Source of the DNA: Ereboglobus sp. PH5-10 | Lineage (GTDB): Bacteria > Verrucomicrobiota > Verrucomicrobiia > Opitutales > Opitutaceae | Assembly (NCBI RefSeq): GCF_029504735.1 | Contig: NZ_JAQFIP010000010.1 | Span: forward strand, 1-64,000 | DNA: 64,000 nucleotides | Direction of reading: 5' to 3' | Part shown: positions 7,379 to 52,409 of the stretch, one piece after another | How the letters are laid out: each line of letters starts with the position of its first letter | Position numbering within the stretch: the stretch's first letter is position 1 | Program-made: the position numbers and the translations under genes | Notes under the pieces: generated by a model | Seen by the model: only the letters and a program-made list of their open reading frames with translations | The model's database searches: none | Told to the model about the DNA's origin: nothing

Positions 7379-9269
7379 CCCGAGTTCGTCAGTTGGAAAA
7401 ACGCTTGTGTTGCAAATCAATGGGTTGCGCGATTTAAGGGGCGATTTTCGGCACTACATTCGCTATTTGCCTCGCGCTTGTCCCGAGGCCCTTGGCGCCC
7501 ATCCATTGCTCAAGCGAGCGCCACATCGCCAGCGCCAGAAAACACACCAGGATGTGCGCTTGCACGCGCTCCTGTTTGTGATGGAAAACAGGCCTCATCC
7601 CGAGGTCGCTTTTGCTTGTGCGAAACGCCGCCTCGGCCTGTGTGAGTTGGATATACCACCTCCAGAGTTACGCCGGGTCGGTTTCCTCGCAGTTGGTTCT
7701 CAATAGATACGCGCCTTTTTGACGGTTCGCCTTGCTCCCTTCCGCCAGTCGGCTGCTGATGCAAAGCGCGTTCGCCCGGCCTTGCGCGTCGCGCTCAACT
7801 CGCGCCTCGATGATCGCCGCCGCGGCGGGGTTTTTGCCAAGGTGTCTGCCGATGCGCCGGCCCACCGTTTCGTGGTCTTCTTGCGGTGAGCGTCGCAGCC
7901 ACGCGTCGATTTTGACCAGTTCGTCGGTGAGCCGCTCGCTTTGGCGTCGCAGCATCGCGCGTTCTTTTTCGGCCCGCGCCTCGCTTCGGCACAACACGTA
8001 ACGCTCGCCCGGCTCGCCGCCGGGCTGCTCCACGAGGCGCACTTCCAGGCCTTCGCGGATTTGCGTCCAGTTGTCGTTGTCCATGAGTGTTTGCTCGTGG
8101 GCTTTGAGCCAACTCTTGGGCGTGCCGACCAGGTAGCGCGCCTTGTTCGCGCGCAGCAACTCGATGTTGGCCTCGCTGACCATGCCCCGGTCCATCACCC
8201 AAACGCGGTTGGCCGCGCCGTATTTTTCCTCCATCGCGCGGACTATCTCCACCACAGTGGTCGCGTCGTTGCGGTTGCCCGCGAACACCTCGAAGGACAA
8301 GGGAAGTCCCTCGGGCGTGCACACAAGGCCGATGCACACTTGCTTGTTGCCGGGGCGCTGGTCGCGCGAGTAGCCGCGTTGCGCCTGCGGGTTGCGCGCG
8401 CACTCGCCTTCGAAGCAGGTGCTCGTCACCTCGTAGAGCACGAACTCGAAGCGCACGCCGAACCAGTCGCGGTAGCGCGCCATCAGGTGAGAGCACAGCG
8501 CGTCCTTGTGTTTGCCGACCCGGTCGAGCGCGCGGTAGAGCCTCGCGTCGTTGACTTGCGCGGTGTCGATGCCGAGCAGCTCGTCGAGGGCGGTCGAGTC
8601 GAACCACTGCTCGGCCACTCCCAGCTCGGAGCGCTGCGCGCAAAACCGCGCGACGGCCAGTAGCGCGGCGGTGTGCGACCAGCCGACCGACTCGCGCCCC
8701 GGGGGAAGGAGTCGGGCGAGCAACTCGTCGAGGCCGAGGCGGTGCCAGAGGGCCAGCGCGAGGTAGCACTCGCCGAAGTCGCGGCAACGCTCCACGCGCA
8801 CTTGCGAAAGCGCGCCGAGTTCCCAGCCGGGGGCCGGCGCGGCGTCGTCCGGCCCGGTGGCGGCGGACTGGGAAGGGGCGAAGCCGGGTAGCGGGGGCGT
8901 GTGCTCGCGGGGCTTGACGGCGGGGTGTTCGCCACGCAACAACGCGGGCAGCTCGTCCCACGAGTCGCGAATAGCGGACGCGTCCCGCTCGTCGAGTTTG
9001 CCGAGCGAGGCGACGATGCGCTGGCGCGGGCCTCGCGCGGTGCGCACCGTTTCGCACAGGTGCCAGTAACTGTAGCCTGCTCCACGGCACGATTTGGTTT
9101 TGCGACGCAAGAACATGCACGCAGTATCACGCAAAAGCCTTCGGGCATCAATGGGGTGTTCGGCACTACAAGCACTCCGGCGAACGGTTCCCCTATGAAG
9201 AGCCGCGCACGAAAAACGCGCCCTCCTATGAAACTTTTTCCAGACTTCTCTCCAATTGACGAACTCGGG
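7379..9269 (-). mobile_element. IS1634-like insertion sequence with 18-base terminal inverted repeats
   Basis: The ends are CCCGAGTTCGTCAGTTGG at 7379-7396 and its inverted copy CCAATTGACGAACTCGGG at 9252-9269, with one mismatch in 18. They enclose 1891 bases holding a single transposase gene on the minus strand, a normal size for an IS1634-group (IS4-like) element. I could not find a clear target-site duplication: the left flank is cttaa and the right flank ctaaa. The left end is one base from the MITE, so insertion next to or inside older mobile DNA is likely. Confidence 0.75.
7434..9116 (-). pseudogene. IS1634-family transposase, broken by an in-frame stop
   Basis: The start at 9116 (MFLRRKTKSCRGAGYSYW) matches the family N-terminus better than the upstream ATG at 9134. 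The frame runs through LYEVTSTCFEGECARN, where the usual Asp of the Y-D-x-T-S motif is Glu, and VWVMDRGMVSEAN with the second Asp. At 7668-7670 a TAA interrupts the conserved ..TDPA-x-LW motif where a Glu codon is expected (GAA to TAA). After it the same frame continues with the typical C-terminal core, LWRWYIQLTQAEAAFRTSK then DLGMRPVFHHKQERVQAHIL, to a stop at 7434. The catalytic Glu lies after the premature stop, so the product should be inactive unless read through. Confidence 0.85.
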
Positions 9270-12565: not shown

Positions 12566-13930
12566 TTAGACCTTGGCCATCTTGCCCTTTTCCATCAGCG
12601 TGAGCATGACGCCGCGGCGAAAGAGTGTCACCTGGCCGGTGCTCGACGAAATCGCGATTGAGATGCAGTTGGTGGCGACCGAAATCGCCGCGGCGGCCGC
12701 GTGGCGCGCGCCAAGGCCGCCGGGGAGCGCGTGGCCGTTGTCCGCCGCCTGGATCAGGCTGCCGGCGGAGATGACCACGCCGTCGCCGCGGATCACGAAC
12801 GCGCCGTCAATCGACGAAAACTCCTTGATGGTTTCGTCCATGAAGGGGTTGAGGATGTTGCGATCCTCCTCCTTGTATCCATAAAATGGATTCAGCACGA
12901 GCGGCTTGGTGAGTTTTTCCACGTGCGCGTTGTCGCCGAGGACGAAGAGGCTGCCCACGGGCTTGCCCTCGCGCCCCTCGATGGCGAGTTCGCTCGCGAC
13001 GGCGATCACGCGCTCGAACACCTCGGGCTTCACGTCGTCGGGCAGCAGGTCGGTGTTTTGCGTGAGCAGTGTTTGGAATTCGCGCCCCACATCGACGACC
13101 ACGATTGTGTCGAACTGGTTGTTGCCGGTCAGTCCCGCGAGGCAGCAGATGCGGTCGTCGAATGAAATGATGCCGCGGGTCAGCCCGACGATGATCGCGC
13201 TGCGCAGTTGCGCGAGCCGCTGGCTTGAGAAGGAGCGCACTTGTATGACCTCGGCGAATTTTCCCTGCGCCTGCGAGGAGTCGACCAGGTTGCGAGTCAC
13301 AAGCAGCGATTTGACCTTGGAGGACCAATGCCCGAGCTCGACGCCGCTGTTGAACGTGTCGCCGAACACCATGATCATGCCGCACGCCGTGCCTTTGGCG
13401 ACGCGCTCCGCCTCGGCGATCATCGTGCGGTTCATGCTGTTTTGCTGCACTTGCACGGGGCGCGCGGTCATGCCGCCGAAGGCCGAGTAGAGGCGTTCGT
13501 AAACGTCGTCGAGCTTGGGCGCGGTGAGCAGCGTTTTTACGAAATCCGCGTCGTCAATGATGCGCGCCAGGGCGGCGAGCACCTGCAGGTAGTCGCGCGC
13601 GCGGTCATCCGCAAGGAGCATGAAGATCAGGTTGATCGCCTCGTCGGCCTTCGTGCCGTCGTGGCGTATGCCCGCGACACTGCGGCCCACTGCGAGGATG
13701 TAGCGGCGTTCGCCGCCGAGCTTCACGCGCACGTGCGGGAGCGCGACGCCGTTGCCGAGATAGGTGGTCATCGTGCTCTCGCGCTGGAGCAGGCCCTTGA
13801 GCAGCACTTCCTGCTTCAGGTTGGGGAAGCGGCTGATGGACACCTCGAGCAATTCCTCCAGCGCGCTGGTGATGTCGGGGCTGCCGAGTTCAACAATTCT
13901 GCTCCGGGCGATGATTTTTTCTAGCCGCAT
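12566..13930 (-). CDS. PTS EIIA domain fused to diadenylate cyclase (c-di-AMP synthase)
   Basis: The 454-residue protein has two recognisable ends. Residues 1 to about 145 look like a PTS EIIA (fructose/nitrogen type) domain with the phosphorylatable histidine in GVALPHVRV (H66). The C-terminus is a DAC domain: DGA at 375-377, then GGLGARHAAAAAIS with RH at 409-410, and a strand ending SSSTGQVTLF. DAC enzymes join two ATP into c-di-AMP. The third residue of the usual RHR motif is Ala here. The middle (about 170-340, CGMIMVFGDTFNSGVELG) resembles the extra domain found in DacZ-type cyclases. It sits downstream of nuoA with a 42-base gap. The role of the EIIA part as a phosphorylation switch is inference. 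Confidence 0.85.
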   Translation of the reverse strand: MRLEKIIARSRIVELGSPDITSALEELLEVSISRFPNLKQEVLLKGLLQRESTMTTYLGNGVALPHVRVKLGGERRYILAVGRSVAGIRHDGTKADEAINLIFMLLADDRARDYLQVLAALARIIDDADFVKTLLTAPKLDDVYERLYSAFGGMTARPVQVQQNSMNRTMIAEAERVAKGTACGMIMVFGDTFNSGVELGHWSSKVKSLLVTRNLVDSSQAQGKFAEVIQVRSFSSQRLAQLRSAIIVGLTRGIISFDDRICCLAGLTGNNQFDTIVVVDVGREFQTLLTQNTDLLPDDVKPEVFERVIAVASELAIEGREGKPVGSLFVLGDNAHVEKLTKPLVLNPFYGYKEEDRNILNPFMDETIKEFSSIDGAFVIRGDGVVISAGSLIQAADNGHALPGGLGARHAAAAAISVATNCISIAISSSTGQVTLFRRGVMLTLMEKGKMAKV

Positions 13931-13972: not shown

Positions 13973-14347
13973 TTACTTTTCCCATTTAAGCGCGCCCTTT
14001 TTCACCTCGTAGAAAAGGCCGAGCACGATCACGCCGATGAAAACCAGGATCGGCGCGACAATTTCAATGTTGTTGGCGAGGAAATCGCGATAGATGAACG
14101 CCCAGGGGATGAGAAAAACGACCTCGATGTCGAAAAGGATGAACAGCATCACGGTGACGTAAAACTTCACCGAAAAACGCGTGTGCGGGTTGCCGTCCGA
14201 CTTGACGCCGCACTCATAGGGGGTGTCCTTGATGGCGTTTCTGCGCGCGCGCTGTCCCAGCAACTGCGAGGTGAGGAGCACGCCCGCCGTGAGCGCGATG
14301 GCGAGGCAGATTTGGACGAGGATGGGAAAATAAGCCGCGGAGGACAT
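13973..14347 (-). CDS. nuoA: NADH-quinone oxidoreductase subunit A, orphan copy
   Basis: The 124-residue membrane protein has three hydrophobic spans and the NuoA signatures DTPYECGVKSDGN and FSVKFYVTVMLFILFDIEVVF, which include the acidic residues of the family. NuoA is a small proton-arm subunit of complex I. The normal neighbours nuoB to nuoN are absent: downstream is the c-di-AMP synthase gene and upstream a divergent esterase. The rest of complex I may be elsewhere, or this may be a second copy. No start alternatives are needed; the ATG at 14347 gives the usual N-terminus. Confidence 0.95.
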   Translation of the reverse strand: MSSAAYFPILVQICLAIALTAGVLLTSQLLGQRARRNAIKDTPYECGVKSDGNPHTRFSVKFYVTVMLFILFDIEVVFLIPWAFIYRDFLANNIEIVAPILVFIGVIVLGLFYEVKKGALKWEK

Positions 14348-33689: not shown

Positions 33690-35483
33690 ATGCGATCCTT
33701 TTTATCCGACACCTCCGGGCAGCAAAAGATTTTGCGCGTGCTGAACGCGACGCTGGTTTTGTGCGCGCTGGGCGCGTGCGCGCTTTTTGTGCTGCTGATC
33801 GGCTGGCCGCTTTCCAGCCAGAAGGAGTGGATGCTGCATGTGCTCACGCGCATTGTGCTGGGTGTTTTTGTGCTGCAAGAAATCGTGCGGCTGCTGATCA
33901 ACCCTCACAGGATGCAGCACCTCCGCGAACGAAAACTGGAGTCGGCGCTCGCCGTGCTTGTGCTGCTGGAGTCGCTTTTCAGCCACCACGTGGACGGGGT
34001 GATCAGCGGCTGGATTCCTGATGCGAAGCCGGGCACGATCGCGTTGTTCGTGCTGGCGTTTTCGCAACTCACACTGATCGGGCTCATTTGTTTGCGGGGG
34101 CTGAGGCGCATTCCGGCGATCGCGTCGAGAAACCTCACGCCGGGCGGCGCGCTTATCCTGAGCTTTGCGCTGATTATCACGGCGGGCATGTTGCTTTTGA
34201 AAATGCCGCGCGCGACGCTCGACGGGATTTCCTGGATTGACGCGCTCTTCACCTCGACGAGCGCGGTGTGCGTGACGGGGCTGACGGTGTTGGACACGTC
34301 GCAGGCGTTCACCCAGGAGGGGCAGCTCATAATTCTCGGGCTCGTGCAGGTGGGCGGATTGGGGATCATGACGCTCACGTATTTTTTCGCGCACTTCCTG
34401 ACCGGTGGCGTGTCGTTTCGGAACCGCATCGCGCTGCAGGATTTGTTGAGCGAGGAAAACCTGGGGCAGATCGGCATGGTGCTGGGCATCATTGTCGGCT
34501 TCACGTTTTCCTTCGAGCTGGCGGGCGCGGCGGCGATTTACTGGTCGGTGGACCACGTGCCGGGAGTGGGGACGGTGGATCGTTTGTTCTTCGCGGGGTT
34601 TCACTCGGTCATGTCGTTTTGCAACGCGGGGTTCAGCACGGTTCCCGACGGGCTCGCGAACACCGTGTTGCGTGGCAACGTGGGCCTGATCACCGCGGTG
34701 ATGCTGCTCGTGAGCGCGGGCGGCATCGGGTTTCCGGTGGTGAAAAATCTCTGGCAGGTGGCGGTGGCCGTGGCGCGCAGGGCGTTGCGTTTGCGCGTGG
34801 CGGCGCCGCCTCGGCTCACGATCAACAGCCGCGTGGTGCTGGTCGCGTCGCTGTGCCTGACCGTTGGCGGAGCGGTGTTTATTTTCTTCTCGGAGTATGT
34901 TTTTGCCGGGAGCGACACGGGCGGCTTTCCCTCGTGGCTGGCGGCTTTGTTTCACTCGGTCACGGCGCGGTCGGGCGGTTTTAACATTACCGACACGAGG
35001 ATGCACGCTCCCGCGACGATTGTGATTTTGCTGTTCCTGATGTTCATCGGCGGCAGCCCGGCGAGCACGGCGGGCGGCGTGAAAACCTCGACGCTGGCGG
35101 TGGCGGTGCTGGCGCTGCGCCGCGTGCTGCTCGGGCGCGCCGAGATCGAGGCGTTTGGCCGCCGCGTGAACGACGAGACCGCGAATCGCGCGCTCGCGGT
35201 CATGCTGCTGGCGGGGGCGTTTTTCACCCTGGTGCTCGTCGTGCTGTGCATGCTGCACCCCGAGCTTTCGACGATGGACATGGCGTTCGAATCCATAAGC
35301 GCGATCAGCACGACGGGGCTGACGCGGGGCGTCGCGCCGCTGCTTGGCGGCGCGGGGAAATGCGTGATGGTGCTGGCGATGTTCGTCGGGCGCATCGGCG
35401 TGCTGATGGTGCTGCTCGCGATCATGCCCCGGCACCCGCAGGCGGGTTTCCGCCTGCCGGAAGGCCACATTGTGATCACTTGA
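33690..35483 (+). CDS. ktrB: Potassium uptake channel subunit, TrkH/KtrB family
   Basis: The 597-residue membrane protein has the four pore (selectivity-filter) motifs of the SKT superfamily: TSAVCVTGLTVLD, SFCNAGFSTV, TARSGGFNITD and ISTTGLTRG. KtrB/TrkH proteins form the ion path for K+ (or Na+-coupled K+) uptake and are gated by a cytosolic KtrA/TrkA ring. That partner is encoded 37 bases downstream. An N-terminal extension of about 130 residues with several hydrophobic spans is longer than in KtrB of Bacillus. The symbol is a family-level guess; trkH would be equally fair. Confidence 0.92.
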   Translation: MRSFLSDTSGQQKILRVLNATLVLCALGACALFVLLIGWPLSSQKEWMLHVLTRIVLGVFVLQEIVRLLINPHRMQHLRERKLESALAVLVLLESLFSHHVDGVISGWIPDAKPGTIALFVLAFSQLTLIGLICLRGLRRIPAIASRNLTPGGALILSFALIITAGMLLLKMPRATLDGISWIDALFTSTSAVCVTGLTVLDTSQAFTQEGQLIILGLVQVGGLGIMTLTYFFAHFLTGGVSFRNRIALQDLLSEENLGQIGMVLGIIVGFTFSFELAGAAAIYWSVDHVPGVGTVDRLFFAGFHSVMSFCNAGFSTVPDGLANTVLRGNVGLITAVMLLVSAGGIGFPVVKNLWQVAVAVARRALRLRVAAPPRLTINSRVVLVASLCLTVGGAVFIFFSEYVFAGSDTGGFPSWLAALFHSVTARSGGFNITDTRMHAPATIVILLFLMFIGGSPASTAGGVKTSTLAVAVLALRRVLLGRAEIEAFGRRVNDETANRALAVMLLAGAFFTLVLVVLCMLHPELSTMDMAFESISAISTTGLTRGVAPLLGGAGKCVMVLAMFVGRIGVLMVLLAIMPRHPQAGFRLPEGHIVIT

Positions 35484-35520
35484 CCCTCAAACAATCCTCA
35501 ACCCAACAAAATCCAACTTT

Positions 35521-36231
35521 ATGAAATGCTGCATTATCGGACTTGGTGTTTTCGGAAAAAACCTGGCGCGCGACCTCGCGCAACTCGGCGCGGACGTGCT
35601 CACGATCGACCGGCGCGATGACAACATCGCGCAAATCAAGGACGAGGTCGGCGCGGCCGTGGTGATGGATTTCGACGATCCGACGCCGCTGGCGCATTTC
35701 CCGATCTCGGAAATGGACGCGGTGATCGTGGCGATCGGCGACGACTTCGAGCATTCGATGGCGCTGACGATGAAGTCGCAGGAGCTCGGCGCGAAACGCA
35801 TCGTGTGCCGCGTGCTCTCGCCGATGCACGAGCGGCTTTTGCGTTTGCTCAAGGTTGACCGCCTCGTGGTGCCCGAGGAGGTCGCGGCGCGCGGGCTCGC
35901 GCATTCGCTGCTGATGCGCGGCGTGCTGGACGGCTTCGACATGGGCAACAACCATTCGATCATCGAGGCCACGGTGCCGGCAAAGCTGGTCGGCAAATCG
36001 CTCACGGAAAGCGCGGAGGATTTTAAGGTCGCCGGCGTGCGCATCGTGACGATCAAGCGCGTCGAAAAGGGGCTGCTCGATGGATTGCGAAAAATATCGG
36101 ACCAGTCCGTCAAGCGCCGCACGCTTGGCGTTGTGACGATGTCCGAGATTTTTCAGGCCGATGATATTTTTGTGCTCTTCGGCCCCGAGAAGAACCTGCG
36201 TTCATTTCTGGAAACGTATTCGGGCGATTGA
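35521..36231 (+). CDS. ktrA: Potassium transport regulatory subunit, TrkA/KtrA family (RCK)
   Basis: The 236-residue cytosolic protein opens with an RCK_N Rossmann motif IGLGVFGKNLARDLAQLG and the acidic strand end TIDRRDD, which binds nucleotide. A C-terminal RCK_C domain follows (VPAKLVGKSLTESAEDFKVA, ADDIFVLFGPEKNLRSFLE). It forms a ring under KtrB and gates it in response to ATP/ADP or NADH. In some bacteria the RCK_C domain binds c-di-AMP, which is of note because a c-di-AMP synthase is encoded at 12566-13930. That link is inference only. Confidence 0.93.
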   Translation: MKCCIIGLGVFGKNLARDLAQLGADVLTIDRRDDNIAQIKDEVGAAVVMDFDDPTPLAHFPISEMDAVIVAIGDDFEHSMALTMKSQELGAKRIVCRVLSPMHERLLRLLKVDRLVVPEEVAARGLAHSLLMRGVLDGFDMGNNHSIIEATVPAKLVGKSLTESAEDFKVAGVRIVTIKRVEKGLLDGLRKISDQSVKRRTLGVVTMSEIFQADDIFVLFGPEKNLRSFLETYSGD

Positions 36232-42327: not shown

Positions 42328-43833
42328 TTATTCGATTTCCTCAACAGTCGCTTCCACCCGGCGGTCGCCGATGGTCATGGCGTATTTTAGGACGTTGCCG
42401 GCGGTGCCTGCCTCAGCCGTGGGTGCGGGGGAGGGCGCGGAGGCTTTTGCGGCAGGCGCGGGGGCTGTCGGTGCTGCGGCAGGAGCCGCGGGTGCGGGTT
42501 GCGCGTAGAGTTCCTTGAGTTGTTGCGGGAACATGGCGTAGATGACGCAGTGTTCATCGTCCGTGGGGAGCTTGTTTTGCGCGAGTTCGGCTCGGAGGGT
42601 TTCCATCCTCGGCTTGATGAGGTCGGCGGGACGGCAGGTGATGGGGTCTTTTTTCGCGGTCGCGGCGGCGAGTTTCTGGATTTCGGGATCGACAGGCGCG
42701 GGGGTGCGGCCGAAGTAACCGAGCGCGATGTTCATCGCGCCGGGGATGAAGTTTTTCCATCGGCCAAACTTCACGTTCATCACGGCTTGCGTGCCGACGA
42801 TTTGCGAGGTGGGCGTGACGAGCGGGATCCAGCCGAGTTTTTCGCGCACATAGGGGATTTCGGCAAAGACTTCGTCGAAGCGGTCCTCCATTTTCATCTC
42901 GGTGAGTTGCGAGCGGAAGTTGCTGAGCATGCCGCCGGGGACTTCGTAGGTGATGGCGTCGGTGTCCACGACTTCGTTGGCGTGGCGCGTGAACTTGGAG
43001 AGTTGCGCGTAGACGGGTTTGAGGGCCTCGGAGATTTCGCGGACTTTTTTGAGGTCGTAGTCGGCGGCTTTGCGGGGGGCGTTTTCGAGGAGGGCGGTCA
43101 TGCGCAGGTGGTCGGGTTGCGCGGTGCCGTCGGCGAAGGGGCGGATGCCGACGTCGATGGTGTCCACTCCGGCTTCGATGGCGGCGAGGTAGGCGGCGGA
43201 GCCGAGGCCGGCGGTTTCGTGGGTGTGGAGGATGACGGGGATTTTGATTTGCGCCTTGAGACCCTTGATGATGGCGGCGGCGATGTAGGGGGGAATGAGG
43301 CCGGCCATGTCCTTGATGCAGATGCTGTTGCAGCCCATGGCGGCGAGCTCGGCGCCCATTTTGACGAAGCCTTCGATGGTGTGGACGGGGGACTTGGTGT
43401 AGCAGATGGTGCCTTGGGCGTGGCCACCGGCTTTTTTGGTGGCGGCGATGGCGGTCTGCATGTTGCGCGTGTCGTTGAGCGCGTCGAAGATGCGGAGAAT
43501 GTTCATGCCGTGCGCGATGGATTTTTGCACGAAGGCGGTGACGACGTCGTCGGGGTTTTGGTCGTAGGCGACGATGTTTTGTCCGCGCAGGAGCATCATG
43601 TGCGGGGTCTTGGTTTTGGCGCGGATGGCGTCGAGGCGCTTGAAGGGGAACTCCTTCAGGAAGCGCAGGCCGGAGTCGATGGTGGCGCCGCCCCAGGTTT
43701 CGAGCGCGGCGTAACCGAGGGAGTCGAGCGGCACGAGGAGGGGGAGCATTTGCTCGGTGGCCATGCGGGTGGCGGCAAGCGATTGGTGGCCGTCGCGCAG
43801 GACGGTGTTGTTGAAGGTGACGGGTTTGCTCAT
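42328..43833 (-). CDS. Biotin-dependent carboxyltransferase (OadA/PycB-like) without biotinyl domain
   Basis: The 501-residue protein starts with VTFNNTVLRDGHQSLAATRM, the metal-binding DGHQS opening of OadA/PycB carboxyltransferases. The metal-site HTHETAGLGSA and the lysine-bearing NSICIKDMAGLIPP follow, so the TIM-barrel active site looks complete. The C-terminus is an Ala/Pro linker (about 445-482) and then only the first strand of a biotinyl-like domain (LKYAMTIGDRRVEATVEEIE) before the stop; the biotin-accepting MKM is absent. It would move a carboxyl group between biotin and pyruvate or oxaloacetate, using a separate carrier protein. It stands alone, divergent from the DHS-like gene. 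Confidence 0.9.
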   Translation of the reverse strand: MSKPVTFNNTVLRDGHQSLAATRMATEQMLPLLVPLDSLGYAALETWGGATIDSGLRFLKEFPFKRLDAIRAKTKTPHMMLLRGQNIVAYDQNPDDVVTAFVQKSIAHGMNILRIFDALNDTRNMQTAIAATKKAGGHAQGTICYTKSPVHTIEGFVKMGAELAAMGCNSICIKDMAGLIPPYIAAAIIKGLKAQIKIPVILHTHETAGLGSAAYLAAIEAGVDTIDVGIRPFADGTAQPDHLRMTALLENAPRKAADYDLKKVREISEALKPVYAQLSKFTRHANEVVDTDAITYEVPGGMLSNFRSQLTEMKMEDRFDEVFAEIPYVREKLGWIPLVTPTSQIVGTQAVMNVKFGRWKNFIPGAMNIALGYFGRTPAPVDPEIQKLAAATAKKDPITCRPADLIKPRMETLRAELAQNKLPTDDEHCVIYAMFPQQLKELYAQPAPAAPAAAPTAPAPAAKASAPSPAPTAEAGTAGNVLKYAMTIGDRRVEATVEEIE

Positions 43834-50204: not shown

Positions 50205-51014
50205 ATGAACGACATATCGAAACCTTTTGTTTATCTGGTCATTGGCGCCACGGGGTCGGGGCGGCGCGGGATGCTGGCGGATATTCTTGCCGAGGGGCTT
50301 GATGCCGGGGATCGCCCGCTTGTCATGCTTGCCGAAAACGAGGCGGCGGACGCAGCGGACGCCTCGCTGGGCGAGATCGCGCGCTGGCAATGGCGCGCGC
50401 AGGGCGGCGGACCGGAGGGCATGGACGGACGCATCGAGGCGGAGGGCGTCGATATCGCGGGGCGGACGCATGTGTTTTTCGTGACTGACGGAAGGCGCAA
50501 TCCGATCGACCAGATTGAGGCGTTGAAACCGTGGCTGACCGAGGCGGGCGGCGAGCTGGCGCGCGTTGTGTGCGTGGTGAACTGCCAACTGGCCGAGCAA
50601 AACCGATCGCTGATGACGTGGTATGACGCGTGCATCCATTTTTCGGACATCGTGCTGCTGGCGAGGCGCGACGGGGTGACCAACAAGTGGGTGTCCGATT
50701 TTCAGGCGCGGTATAAAAATAAATTTTATCCGTGCCTGTTTGAGTTTGTGAAAGACGGGCGCGTGCGGAATCCGTCGCTGGTGCTGGAGCCCGAGGCTCG
50801 GCGCATGTCGCATTATTTCGAGGAGGCGGATTATGAACTCGCCGGCGGAGGCGACATCGAGGAGGGCATTGACGACGATGACAAGCCGCGCAAACGGCAA
50901 AGCGACGAGGAGATCGAGGTCACCGAGCAGCTTGACGAATACCTCGCGCGGCGCGCGGGCGGACGCCGGGTGAAGGAGATTCCGGATATCGCGAAATTTC
51001 TGGACGCCGACTAA
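50205..51014 (+). CDS. Hypothetical protein with degenerate P-loop
   Basis: The 269-residue protein has an N-terminal beta-strand and loop IGATGSGRRGMLADILAEG, a Walker A shape in which the usual GK-S/T is RR, so ATP or GTP binding may be lost or changed. A second strand HVFFVTDGRRNPIDQIEAL and VVCVVNCQLAEQNRSLM recall CobW/G3E GTPases. The C-terminus is very acidic (GGGDIEEGIDDDDKP) and ends KEIPDIAKFLDAD. No name can be given. Its last four bases overlap the end of the converging hprK gene. It may be specific to this lineage. Confidence 0.7.
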   Translation: MNDISKPFVYLVIGATGSGRRGMLADILAEGLDAGDRPLVMLAENEAADAADASLGEIARWQWRAQGGGPEGMDGRIEAEGVDIAGRTHVFFVTDGRRNPIDQIEALKPWLTEAGGELARVVCVVNCQLAEQNRSLMTWYDACIHFSDIVLLARRDGVTNKWVSDFQARYKNKFYPCLFEFVKDGRVRNPSLVLEPEARRMSHYFEEADYELAGGGDIEEGIDDDDKPRKRQSDEEIEVTEQLDEYLARRAGGRRVKEIPDIAKFLDAD

Positions 51015-52045
51015 CGCTCGGCGTTGATGCGGGATGGGAACTCGGTGGGGTCGGAGGGGCGGACTTTTATCTGGAAGGGTGAGTCGAGTTTTTTCTTGGG
51101 ATCGGCCATGTGGGCGACGAGGCGGTTGTTAAACTCCTCGGCGGAGTGGATGCCGACGCGCTTGAGCGCCTGGGTGAGGGCGGCGACCTCGATGAGGCGG
51201 GCCATGTCGCGCCCGGGGCGGACGTAGAGGGTGATGTGCGGGATTTTTTGGCCGAGGATTTCGTAATAGTTGTCGGCAAGGCCGGTGCGCTCCTCGATGG
51301 CGTCGGGAGTCCATTCATACATGGAGACGACGAGGTCGATGCGTTTTTCGGGGCGCACGGCGCGCACGCCGAACATTTCGACGATGTTGATGATTCCGAT
51401 GCCGCGGCATTCGAGGTAGCCGAAGTTGAGCTCGCGGCTGGATGCGGTGAGCTCGCGCTCGTCGAGGAGGCGGAGCACGGTGTAGTCGTCGGCGACGAGT
51501 GAGTGGCCGCGCTCGATGAGGGCGAGGGCGCATTCGCTTTTGCCGACGCCGGAGCCGCCGCGAATCATGACGCCGATGCCGCGAACATCGACCGTGGTGG
51601 CGTGCTCGGTGATGGGGCTGTGAAATTCGTTGTCGATGAAATGCGTCGCCTGGTTGATGAACTTCATCGTGATGAGCGGCGTGCGGAAGAGGGGCAGGTT
51701 GCACTCCTTGGCGACGGCGAGCAGCTCGGGGGTGGGGTGAAAACTGCGCGTGAGGATGAGGCAGGGAATCTGGTGCTTGAACATGCCCCGGAAAATCTCG
51801 ACCTGGCGCTCGGGGTTGAGCGTCTTGATGAAGGTCATTTCGGCGGCGCCGAGAACCTGGATGCGCTTGTTGGCGAAGTAGCGGAAGAAGCCGGTGAGGG
51901 CGAGTGAGGGGCGGTTGATGCTGCCCTCGCGAATGACCCGGTGCAGGCCGCCCGCGCCTGTGACGAGTTCCATTTTGAGTTTCGCGCCGTAGGTTTGGAA
52001 AAAGTGCGCGACTGTGATGCCGTTGATCGTGTTGGCTTTGCTCAT
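51011..52045 (-). CDS. hprK: HPr kinase/phosphorylase
   Basis: The ATG at 52045 (MSKANTINGITVAHFFQTYG) is the family start; the longer frame runs into the palindrome cluster. The 344-residue protein has an N-terminal HprK_N domain, the Walker A GGSGVGKSECALAL and the K/P-loop signature LECRGIGIINIVEMFG. It phosphorylates or dephosphorylates HPr (or NPr) on a serine in response to sugar phosphates. In proteobacteria hprK also lies near lptB and ptsN. Here lptB is next to it on the same strand, upstream, with about 360 bases of palindromes between. No HPr gene is in the window. Confidence 0.95.
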   Translation of the reverse strand: MSKANTINGITVAHFFQTYGAKLKMELVTGAGGLHRVIREGSINRPSLALTGFFRYFANKRIQVLGAAEMTFIKTLNPERQVEIFRGMFKHQIPCLILTRSFHPTPELLAVAKECNLPLFRTPLITMKFINQATHFIDNEFHSPITEHATTVDVRGIGVMIRGGSGVGKSECALALIERGHSLVADDYTVLRLLDERELTASSRELNFGYLECRGIGIINIVEMFGVRAVRPEKRIDLVVSMYEWTPDAIEERTGLADNYYEILGQKIPHITLYVRPGRDMARLIEVAALTQALKRVGIHSAEEFNNRLVAHMADPKKKLDSPFQIKVRPSDPTEFPSRINAER

Positions 52046-52409
52046 GGGGAAGGGGATGTTATTAGGGAGTGCAAAATAGAAGGGACATGGCTTGAAGCCC
52101 AACGGGCTTCCGTCCCTTAGCCCAGGGTTGCGAGCTTCGCGAGCTACCCTGGGAATAACGAACACAACAAACAACCCCAACGGGGTTGCGGCCTGTGTGT
52201 TCGGCGGGTGTTTTCCGAGGGTGCAACCCCTCCAGGGTTGTGGGTTCTTTTTCATGGCACCCGGGGTAGGCGCTCGCAGCTCGCGCCAACCCCGGGCTAA
52301 TGGATGCATCCCCGTTGGGGATGGGCAAACGACAAACTCGTGTTTTCATGTCGGTGTTATTTTGCACTCATTAATAAGTTTTAAATTCCAAGGAGGGAGC
52401 GCGCCGACT
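52046..52409. repeat. Cluster of REP-like palindromes between lptB and hprK
   Basis: The 364-base gap carries at least five hairpins in tandem: gaagcccaacgggcttc (52093-52109), an 8-10-pair stem agcccagggt to accctggg around 52119-52153, caaccccaacggggttgc (about 52173-52190), gcaacccctccagggttg (about 52221-52238), a long stem around acccggggtaggcg to ccaaccccgggc (about 52259-52297), and catccccgttggggatg (about 52306-52322). They share a CCCC-x-ACGGGG theme, also found after ktrA. There is no coding frame here. Confidence 0.75.

Follow-up and report, generated by a model that had tools for sequence, protein, structure and literature searches.

Within the window (the whole 64,000-nucleotide stretch of Ereboglobus sp. 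PH5-10 DNA analysed here), a single gene on the minus strand (12566..13930) encodes a protein, P0001, in which a PTS EIIA-Ntr-type domain is fused, by way of a pyruvate-kinase-like middle domain, to a diadenylate cyclase (DAC) domain that is the only DAC match in the genome. Taken as a whole, we lean by a little over even chances towards the reading that this sole DAC is phosphorylated on His66 by the PTS, and that this phosphorylation state and a ligand of the middle domain jointly set c-di-AMP. The frame, taken from the window's list of open reading frames, is intact and 454 residues long, with an ATG start that is shared in the sense that most homologues likewise align from residue 1.

Three Pfam domains were recovered in P0001, all of them exceeding the curated cut-offs—an EIIA-Ntr (PtsN)-like domain at residues 1-155 (13466..13930, minus strand; PTS_EIIA_2, PF00359, E 1.9e-20, 73.8 bits against a cut-off of 27), a DacZ_P domain at residues 159-287 (13070..13456, minus strand; PF21755, E 5.9e-19), and a DAC domain at residues 298-447 (12590..13039, minus strand; PF02457, E 1.5e-19, 70.1 bits against a cut-off of 27). 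An AlphaFold model built on an alignment of 57 sequences attained a mean pLDDT of 87.3 and a pTM of 0.58, the latter indicating domains that are well defined in an arrangement that is undefined. Three folds are predicted from this model (VIA-align): residues 1-155 superpose on EIIA-Ntr (1a6j_A; Z 21.1, rmsd 1.9, 148 aligned), residues 159-287 on the C-terminal part of M. tuberculosis pyruvate kinase (5ws9_A, 344-471; Z 15.1, rmsd 3.3, 121 aligned), and residues ~295-447 on both DisA (9y9y_A; Z 15.8, rmsd 2.2, 126 aligned) and CdaA (8c4n_B; Z 14.9, rmsd 3.0, 131 aligned). When the middle domain was modelled alone (pTM 0.80; best fold match Z 14.6), all 50 of the matches listed were pyruvate kinases, in their C-terminal part, and the same fold has been assigned to DacZ and its bacterial relatives by homology modelling, as reported in PMC6741144. 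DacZ_P was found by Pfam in all seven family proteins tested, fused and non-fused, one of them below the cut-off. Structure prediction, which the preliminary description had suggested as a check, thus bore out an N-terminal EIIA domain carrying H66 (Z 21) and a C-terminal DAC domain with DGA and RH-A motifs (Z 15-16 to DisA and CdaA); the description's two-domain reading holds for these two parts and had overlooked the third, the DacZ_P domain between them (Z 15).

The fusion recurs widely among relatives. Across 57 related genomes, the window's own included, it was matched end to end in 49, in pieces in three, by the EIIA part only in one, and not at all in four, so that the search for the fusion in related genomes, likewise suggested beforehand, shows it to be neither an assembly artefact nor a product of chance. 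Natural gene fission was considered for one of the genomes matched in pieces (G047), whose EIIA and DAC parts fall on separate contigs, and is unsupported, as the EIIA part runs into the contig end. In a sample of the class, 183 of 189 genomes had a DAC; the 38 from the window's order included 36 with a DAC, 34 of which had exactly one, and each of these 36 carries a DacZ_P protein whose open frame spans 450-487 residues, except for one of 594 (G028). DAC was absent from four genomes of the order (G053, G054, G175, G435). Other DAC matches in the class had E-values of 1e-31 to 1e-41, and 14 of the best 20 loci carried RHRAA, as in CdaA, the motif in the remaining six being one that the pattern did not read cleanly. 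Another family of the class (f25) contributed four genomes with matches at 2.3e-23 to 2.7e-22, and both sequences read from it are EIIA fusions. Outside the class, the fusion was found in four genomes of one family (f79) and one of another (f119), by near-full-length alignment and, for one, by Pfam. G205 carries two DacZ-type proteins, the second of them unfused.

DacZ-type loci without the fusion occur commonly in Thermodesulfobacteriota, Nitrospinota, and Planctomycetota, and we therefore rejected a reading of DacZ as exclusively archaeal. No EIIA domain was found in the ORFs of 80 such loci, the best among at least 549 relatives that a non-fused query matched (the 80 include the near-copies L112, L113, and L114), a result that does not show the fusion to be confined to one phylum. 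One apparent member of the phylum (L087, on contig C25 of G436) was dropped, its protein being 100% identical to that of Smithella sp. D17; it is probably a contaminant, L113 looks like the same contig, and L087 still stands in the two alignments used here (A1 and A2).

The class to which P0001 belongs has probably been catalogued already as DacD, an identity suggested by named representatives. Those given in PMC6741144, which credits the DAC class names to Corrigan and Gruendling 2013 and Commichau 2018, are Lacunisphaera limnophila, a Puniceicoccaceae bacterium, a Coraliomargarita sp., a 'Verrucomicrobia bacterium', and an 'Opitutae bacterium'. By NCBI taxonomy, Lacunisphaera belongs to Opitutales and Coraliomargarita to the same class, Opitutia; four of the five thus bear names of class Opitutia, the fifth being the 'Verrucomicrobia bacterium', and they fit the order whose genomes usually have this fusion as their one DAC, provided that it is Opitutales, as is probable. 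A survey of DAC architectures has reportedly been made by Galperin in 2023 ('All DACs in a row'). With DacZ/DacY (CdaZ; Euryarchaeota and some bacteria), P0001 shares a DAC clade, a pyruvate-kinase-C-like domain before the DAC domain, and the DGA and RH-x motifs, but it adds the N-terminal EIIA domain, and at 120.5 bits against a cut-off of 430 for NCBIfam NF041371 it is not a DacZ equivalog in NCBI's sense. None of the 14 genomes used as controls, which include those of H. volcanii and M. jannaschii, matched PF21755, so the evidence that the middle domain is akin to archaeal DacZ comes from the fold and from the DAC part. With the CdaA/DacA-type proteins of the rest of the class, P0001 has in common the DAC domain and the slot of usual sole DAC; it differs in having RHA where most of the best class loci have RHRAA, and an EIIA and a pyruvate-kinase-like domain in place of the N-terminal membrane helices described for CdaA (PMC6741144). 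Laboratory E. coli, according to the same paper, encodes no DAC. We found no study of the EIIA-DAC fusion, or biochemistry of its class, in the open-licence literature, and as far as that literature reaches, regulation of the class is unstudied.

We consider that c-di-AMP is probably made in this group, given the sole DAC, a PgpH-type phosphodiesterase, and riboswitches in eight relatives. The PgpH-type 7TMR-HDED phosphodiesterase domain was found in the window's own genome and in 67 of 77 genomes examined, a hand-picked set in which four genomes lack a DAC and seven lie outside the order. It is lacking in three of the four DAC-less genomes versus seven of the 73 with a DAC (Fisher p 0.006), a statistic to which we attach little weight, two of the three belonging to one genus. 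The c-di-AMP riboswitch RF00379 was matched in eight of the 77 genomes, all from the window's family, among them four (G005, G036, G112, and G023) that have the fusion as their only DAC; the window's own genome gave no match among the 36 candidates, of 42, that were scored with strict filters. Three riboswitch loci that we read (L195, L196, and L197) lie upstream of a Band_7 protein, an amino-acid permease, and a KUP K+ transporter, the last in G005. c-di-AMP usually restrains K+ uptake, and a candidate downstream target may lie in the window itself, in a K+ uptake pair (33690..36231) comprised of TrkH (33690-35483, plus strand; PF02386, E 9e-48) and a TrkA-like protein (35521-36231, plus strand; TrkA_N, PF02254, E 3e-21). 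The latter had been described as a KtrA-type subunit; a K+ uptake protein is indeed present, but it is TrkA-like, has TrkH as its neighbour, and matches TrkA_C at 23 bits, below the cut-off of 27. The window also encodes a protein with PYC_OADA and HMGL-like domains (42328-43833, minus strand), of the oxaloacetate decarboxylase alpha or pyruvate carboxylase C-terminal type; the pyruvate carboxylase of Listeria is a c-di-AMP receptor, according to PMC7288161.

Whether the DAC domain is catalytically competent had been questioned on account of its RHA (residues 409-411; 12698..12706, minus strand), which stands in place of the full RHR motif. The motif is as described, and the doubt that it raised is largely answered, RHA being usual in this DAC clade. 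D375 and G376 of the DGA motif (residues 375-377; 12800..12808, minus strand), together with R409 and H410, are invariant across the 57 rows of alignment A1; in the 66 fused rows, which count the window protein twice (P0001 and L001) and thus comprise 65 distinct proteins, D375 is kept in all and A377 in 63. None of the 65 distinct EIIA-fused proteins in the alignment has the third Arg, its position being held by Ala in 57 rows, Ser in four, Thr in four, and Val in one; two more fused proteins, which come from a different family of the class, have Glu there. The third Arg is missing likewise in 71 of the 80 non-fused DacZ-type loci, with Arg in only nine (seven RHRA, two RHRS); two loci missed by the motif pattern read RHM and RHY, and two haloarchaeal proteins annotated as DacZ read RHH. 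This variation across fused and non-fused proteins shows RHA to be the normal state of the clade and no sign of a dead enzyme, and we set that interpretation of the motif aside. A broader form of it holds that the domain is dead through both RHA and a Ser at position 429, P0001 serving as a sensor of ATP or c-di-AMP. In its favour, changing RHR to AAA abolishes the activity of M. tuberculosis DacA (PMC3328451), and position 429 is Ser in 50 fused rows (Glu in eight, Ala in five, Gly in three) where the matching site is Glu in 63 of the 80 non-fused loci (Gln in nine, Gly in seven, one unread). The AAA mutant, however, also lacked R and H, both of which are invariant here, and H. volcanii DacZ, a member of the DacZ class, is reported in PMC6741144 to be essential and, with Mn2+, to produce c-di-AMP in vitro. 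Against it also stand the freedom of the third position among non-fused and haloarchaeal proteins, the standing of P0001 as sole DAC in a genome that also encodes a PgpH domain, and the riboswitches of its relatives, and we regard a dead DAC as very improbable.

In the EIIA domain, the predicted phospho-acceptor His66 (13733..13735, minus strand), in the context GVALPHVR, and Arg50 align with H73 and R57 of E. coli PtsN (1a6j). As in the EIIA-Ntr of PTS-Ntr, the fold is the same and the relay has no PF02378 permease; unlike PtsN, the domain is fused to an enzyme, an HPr kinase is encoded in the same genomes, and a well-conserved Tyr114 stands at the position of PtsN H120, which we take to be the second active-site His. 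His66 is kept in 61 of the 65 distinct fused proteins (62 of 66 rows), ranking 14th of 154 EIIA columns in conservation, and is also present in three more fused proteins read later. Mean column entropy over the 66 fused rows was 1.68 bits for EIIA, 1.71 for DacZ_P, and 0.95 for DAC. EI, HPr, and HPr kinase were each found in 74 of the 77 genomes, and all three are present in the window's own genome. The HPr kinase that the preliminary description had placed in the window is indeed there, unlinked to the fusion (HPr kinase/phosphorylase, 51011..52309, minus strand; PF07475, E 2.7e-52; PF02603, E 7.1e-36). B. subtilis has an HPr kinase and was not among the three of 14 genomes matched in the control for this search, which can thus miss such proteins. 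The permease family PTS_EIIC (PF02378) was found in only five of the 77 genomes, and a profile search for this one EIIC family found none in the window's own genome; EI and HPr in the company of no PF02378 permease suggest a relay that resembles PTS-Ntr and looks regulatory.

Loss of His66 does not follow loss of the PTS. The residue is replaced by Tyr in G039 (L064), by Ser in G179 (L091) and G209 (L092), and by Cys in G439 (L094), and all four genomes retain EI, HPr, and intact DAC motifs, which is the opposite of what a co-loss test predicted. The last three belong to one family, in which the EIIA domain is eroding—of two members scanned with Pfam, L092 scored 26.0 bits against the cut-off of 27 and L094 gave no match—and G039 belongs to another. 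Conversely, His66 is kept in assemblies without the full relay: G042 (93% complete) is without EI, HPr, and HPr kinase, G044 (95% complete) without HPr or HPr kinase, and G049 (82% complete) without EI. Both patterns count against strict coupling of the PTS to the DAC.

In the mechanism that we propose, phosphate would pass from PEP through EI and HPr to His66 of the EIIA-Ntr-type domain, in a PTS without a PF02378 permease, and c-di-AMP would be made where two ATP-bound DAC domains from two chains pair. The phosphorylation state of His66, together with the ligand of the pyruvate-kinase-C-like domain, would alter this pairing and with it the level of c-di-AMP, which would act on K+ transport and be cleared by the PgpH-type phosphodiesterase. 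That phosphorylation of His66 may set DAC activity is plausible. As for polarity, we guess, by barely more than the toss of a coin, that phosphorylated His66 raises c-di-AMP. The guess is drawn from analogy: in Caulobacter, phosphorylated EIIA-Ntr raises (p)ppGpp (PMC4848567), and in several bacteria the unphosphorylated form is reported to promote K+ uptake through KdpD (PMC9239096), where K+ uptake would suit low c-di-AMP.

Two other readings take the DAC to be active and give the EIIA domain a different or lesser part. It may serve mainly as a docking or PTS-output module, which binds partners such as K+ transporters or a kinase according to its phosphorylation and leaves catalysis unchanged, the fusion placing synthesis near PTS targets. 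EIIA-Ntr does bind partners such as KdpD (PMC9239096), the EIIA domain is less conserved than the DAC domain, and the DAC motifs are intact where His66 has been lost; yet the fusion is kept across most of the order and in other families of the phylum, beyond what we would expect of independent halves, and we judge this reading unlikely. Less likely still, control could act chiefly through a metabolite effector of the DacZ_P domain, as presumably in non-fused DacZ, with EIIA minor and in some lineages vestigial. The presence of DacZ_P in fused and non-fused proteins alike would agree with this, as would its fold, for which all 50 matches listed fall in the C-terminal part of pyruvate kinases, which binds effectors (PMC6741144), and the erosion of EIIA in one family; against it, His66 is kept in all but four of the distinct proteins, and DacZ_P is no better conserved than EIIA.

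The fusion gene has a conserved neighbour. A nuoA-like gene (13973..14347, minus strand; PF00507, E 1.7e-30) lies 42 bp upstream on the same strand, its product containing FDIEVVFLIPW, which we take to be the conserved NuoA motif region, and the two genes are probably co-transcribed. The pair recurs in 55 of the 60 genomes of the order in which the locus was read, with gaps of 3-224 bp and one of 522; of six DacZ loci read outside the order, five being EIIA fusions and the sixth (L083) without EIIA, none has it. Four of the five exceptions are without this NuoA altogether and the fifth (G039) has it elsewhere, and the DAC-less genomes G054 and G435 retain it, so the pairing, though conserved, is not obligatory. 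The window's own genome encodes another NuoA elsewhere, with 30% identity to this one. Also in the window, a transposase gene occupies 7668-9134 (minus strand; DDE_Tnp_1, with DUF4277 just under its cut-off).

Extended to most of the order, our reading would have the sole c-di-AMP synthase wired into a permease-less PTS and a pyruvate-kinase-type effector domain and co-transcribed with a complex I subunit gene, such that c-di-AMP, and thus K+ and osmotic balance, would read out PEP and pyruvate status; we offer this tentatively, at somewhat less than even chances. In our judgement, c-di-AMP biology is weak on the question of what controls diadenylate cyclases. If our reading is true, the covalent fusion of a cyclase to a PTS phospho-acceptor would connect PEP flux, within a single protein and in a way that can be tested, with a second messenger that is often essential, and would give a reason for the presence of the fusion in this order in place of the CdaA-type DAC found elsewhere in the class. 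Two known regulators of K+, EIIA-Ntr and c-di-AMP, meet here in one polypeptide, and switching of P0001 could tie carbon status to salt balance across a bacterial order.

On the origin of the fusion, a quick tree placed the fused proteins in one clade with a support of 62. In a more careful tree, with two rows added and the long-branch row L090 removed, the fusion needs three changes, and a single change sufficed in 1% of 200 bootstrap trees; an AU test did not reject one clade for the fusion (p 0.40). One genome (G228) encodes an EIIA fusion and a second, CdaA-like DAC (L200, 402 aa) with RHA for RHR. The interval between pntAB-type genes and the EIIA-DAC gene holds, in two f79 genomes out of four, a Zn_ribbon_9-EIIA_2 protein, identified by Pfam in L085 (7258-8145, minus strand) and by similarity in L084 (2706-3620, plus strand), and a further conserved gene, which is radical SAM in L085.
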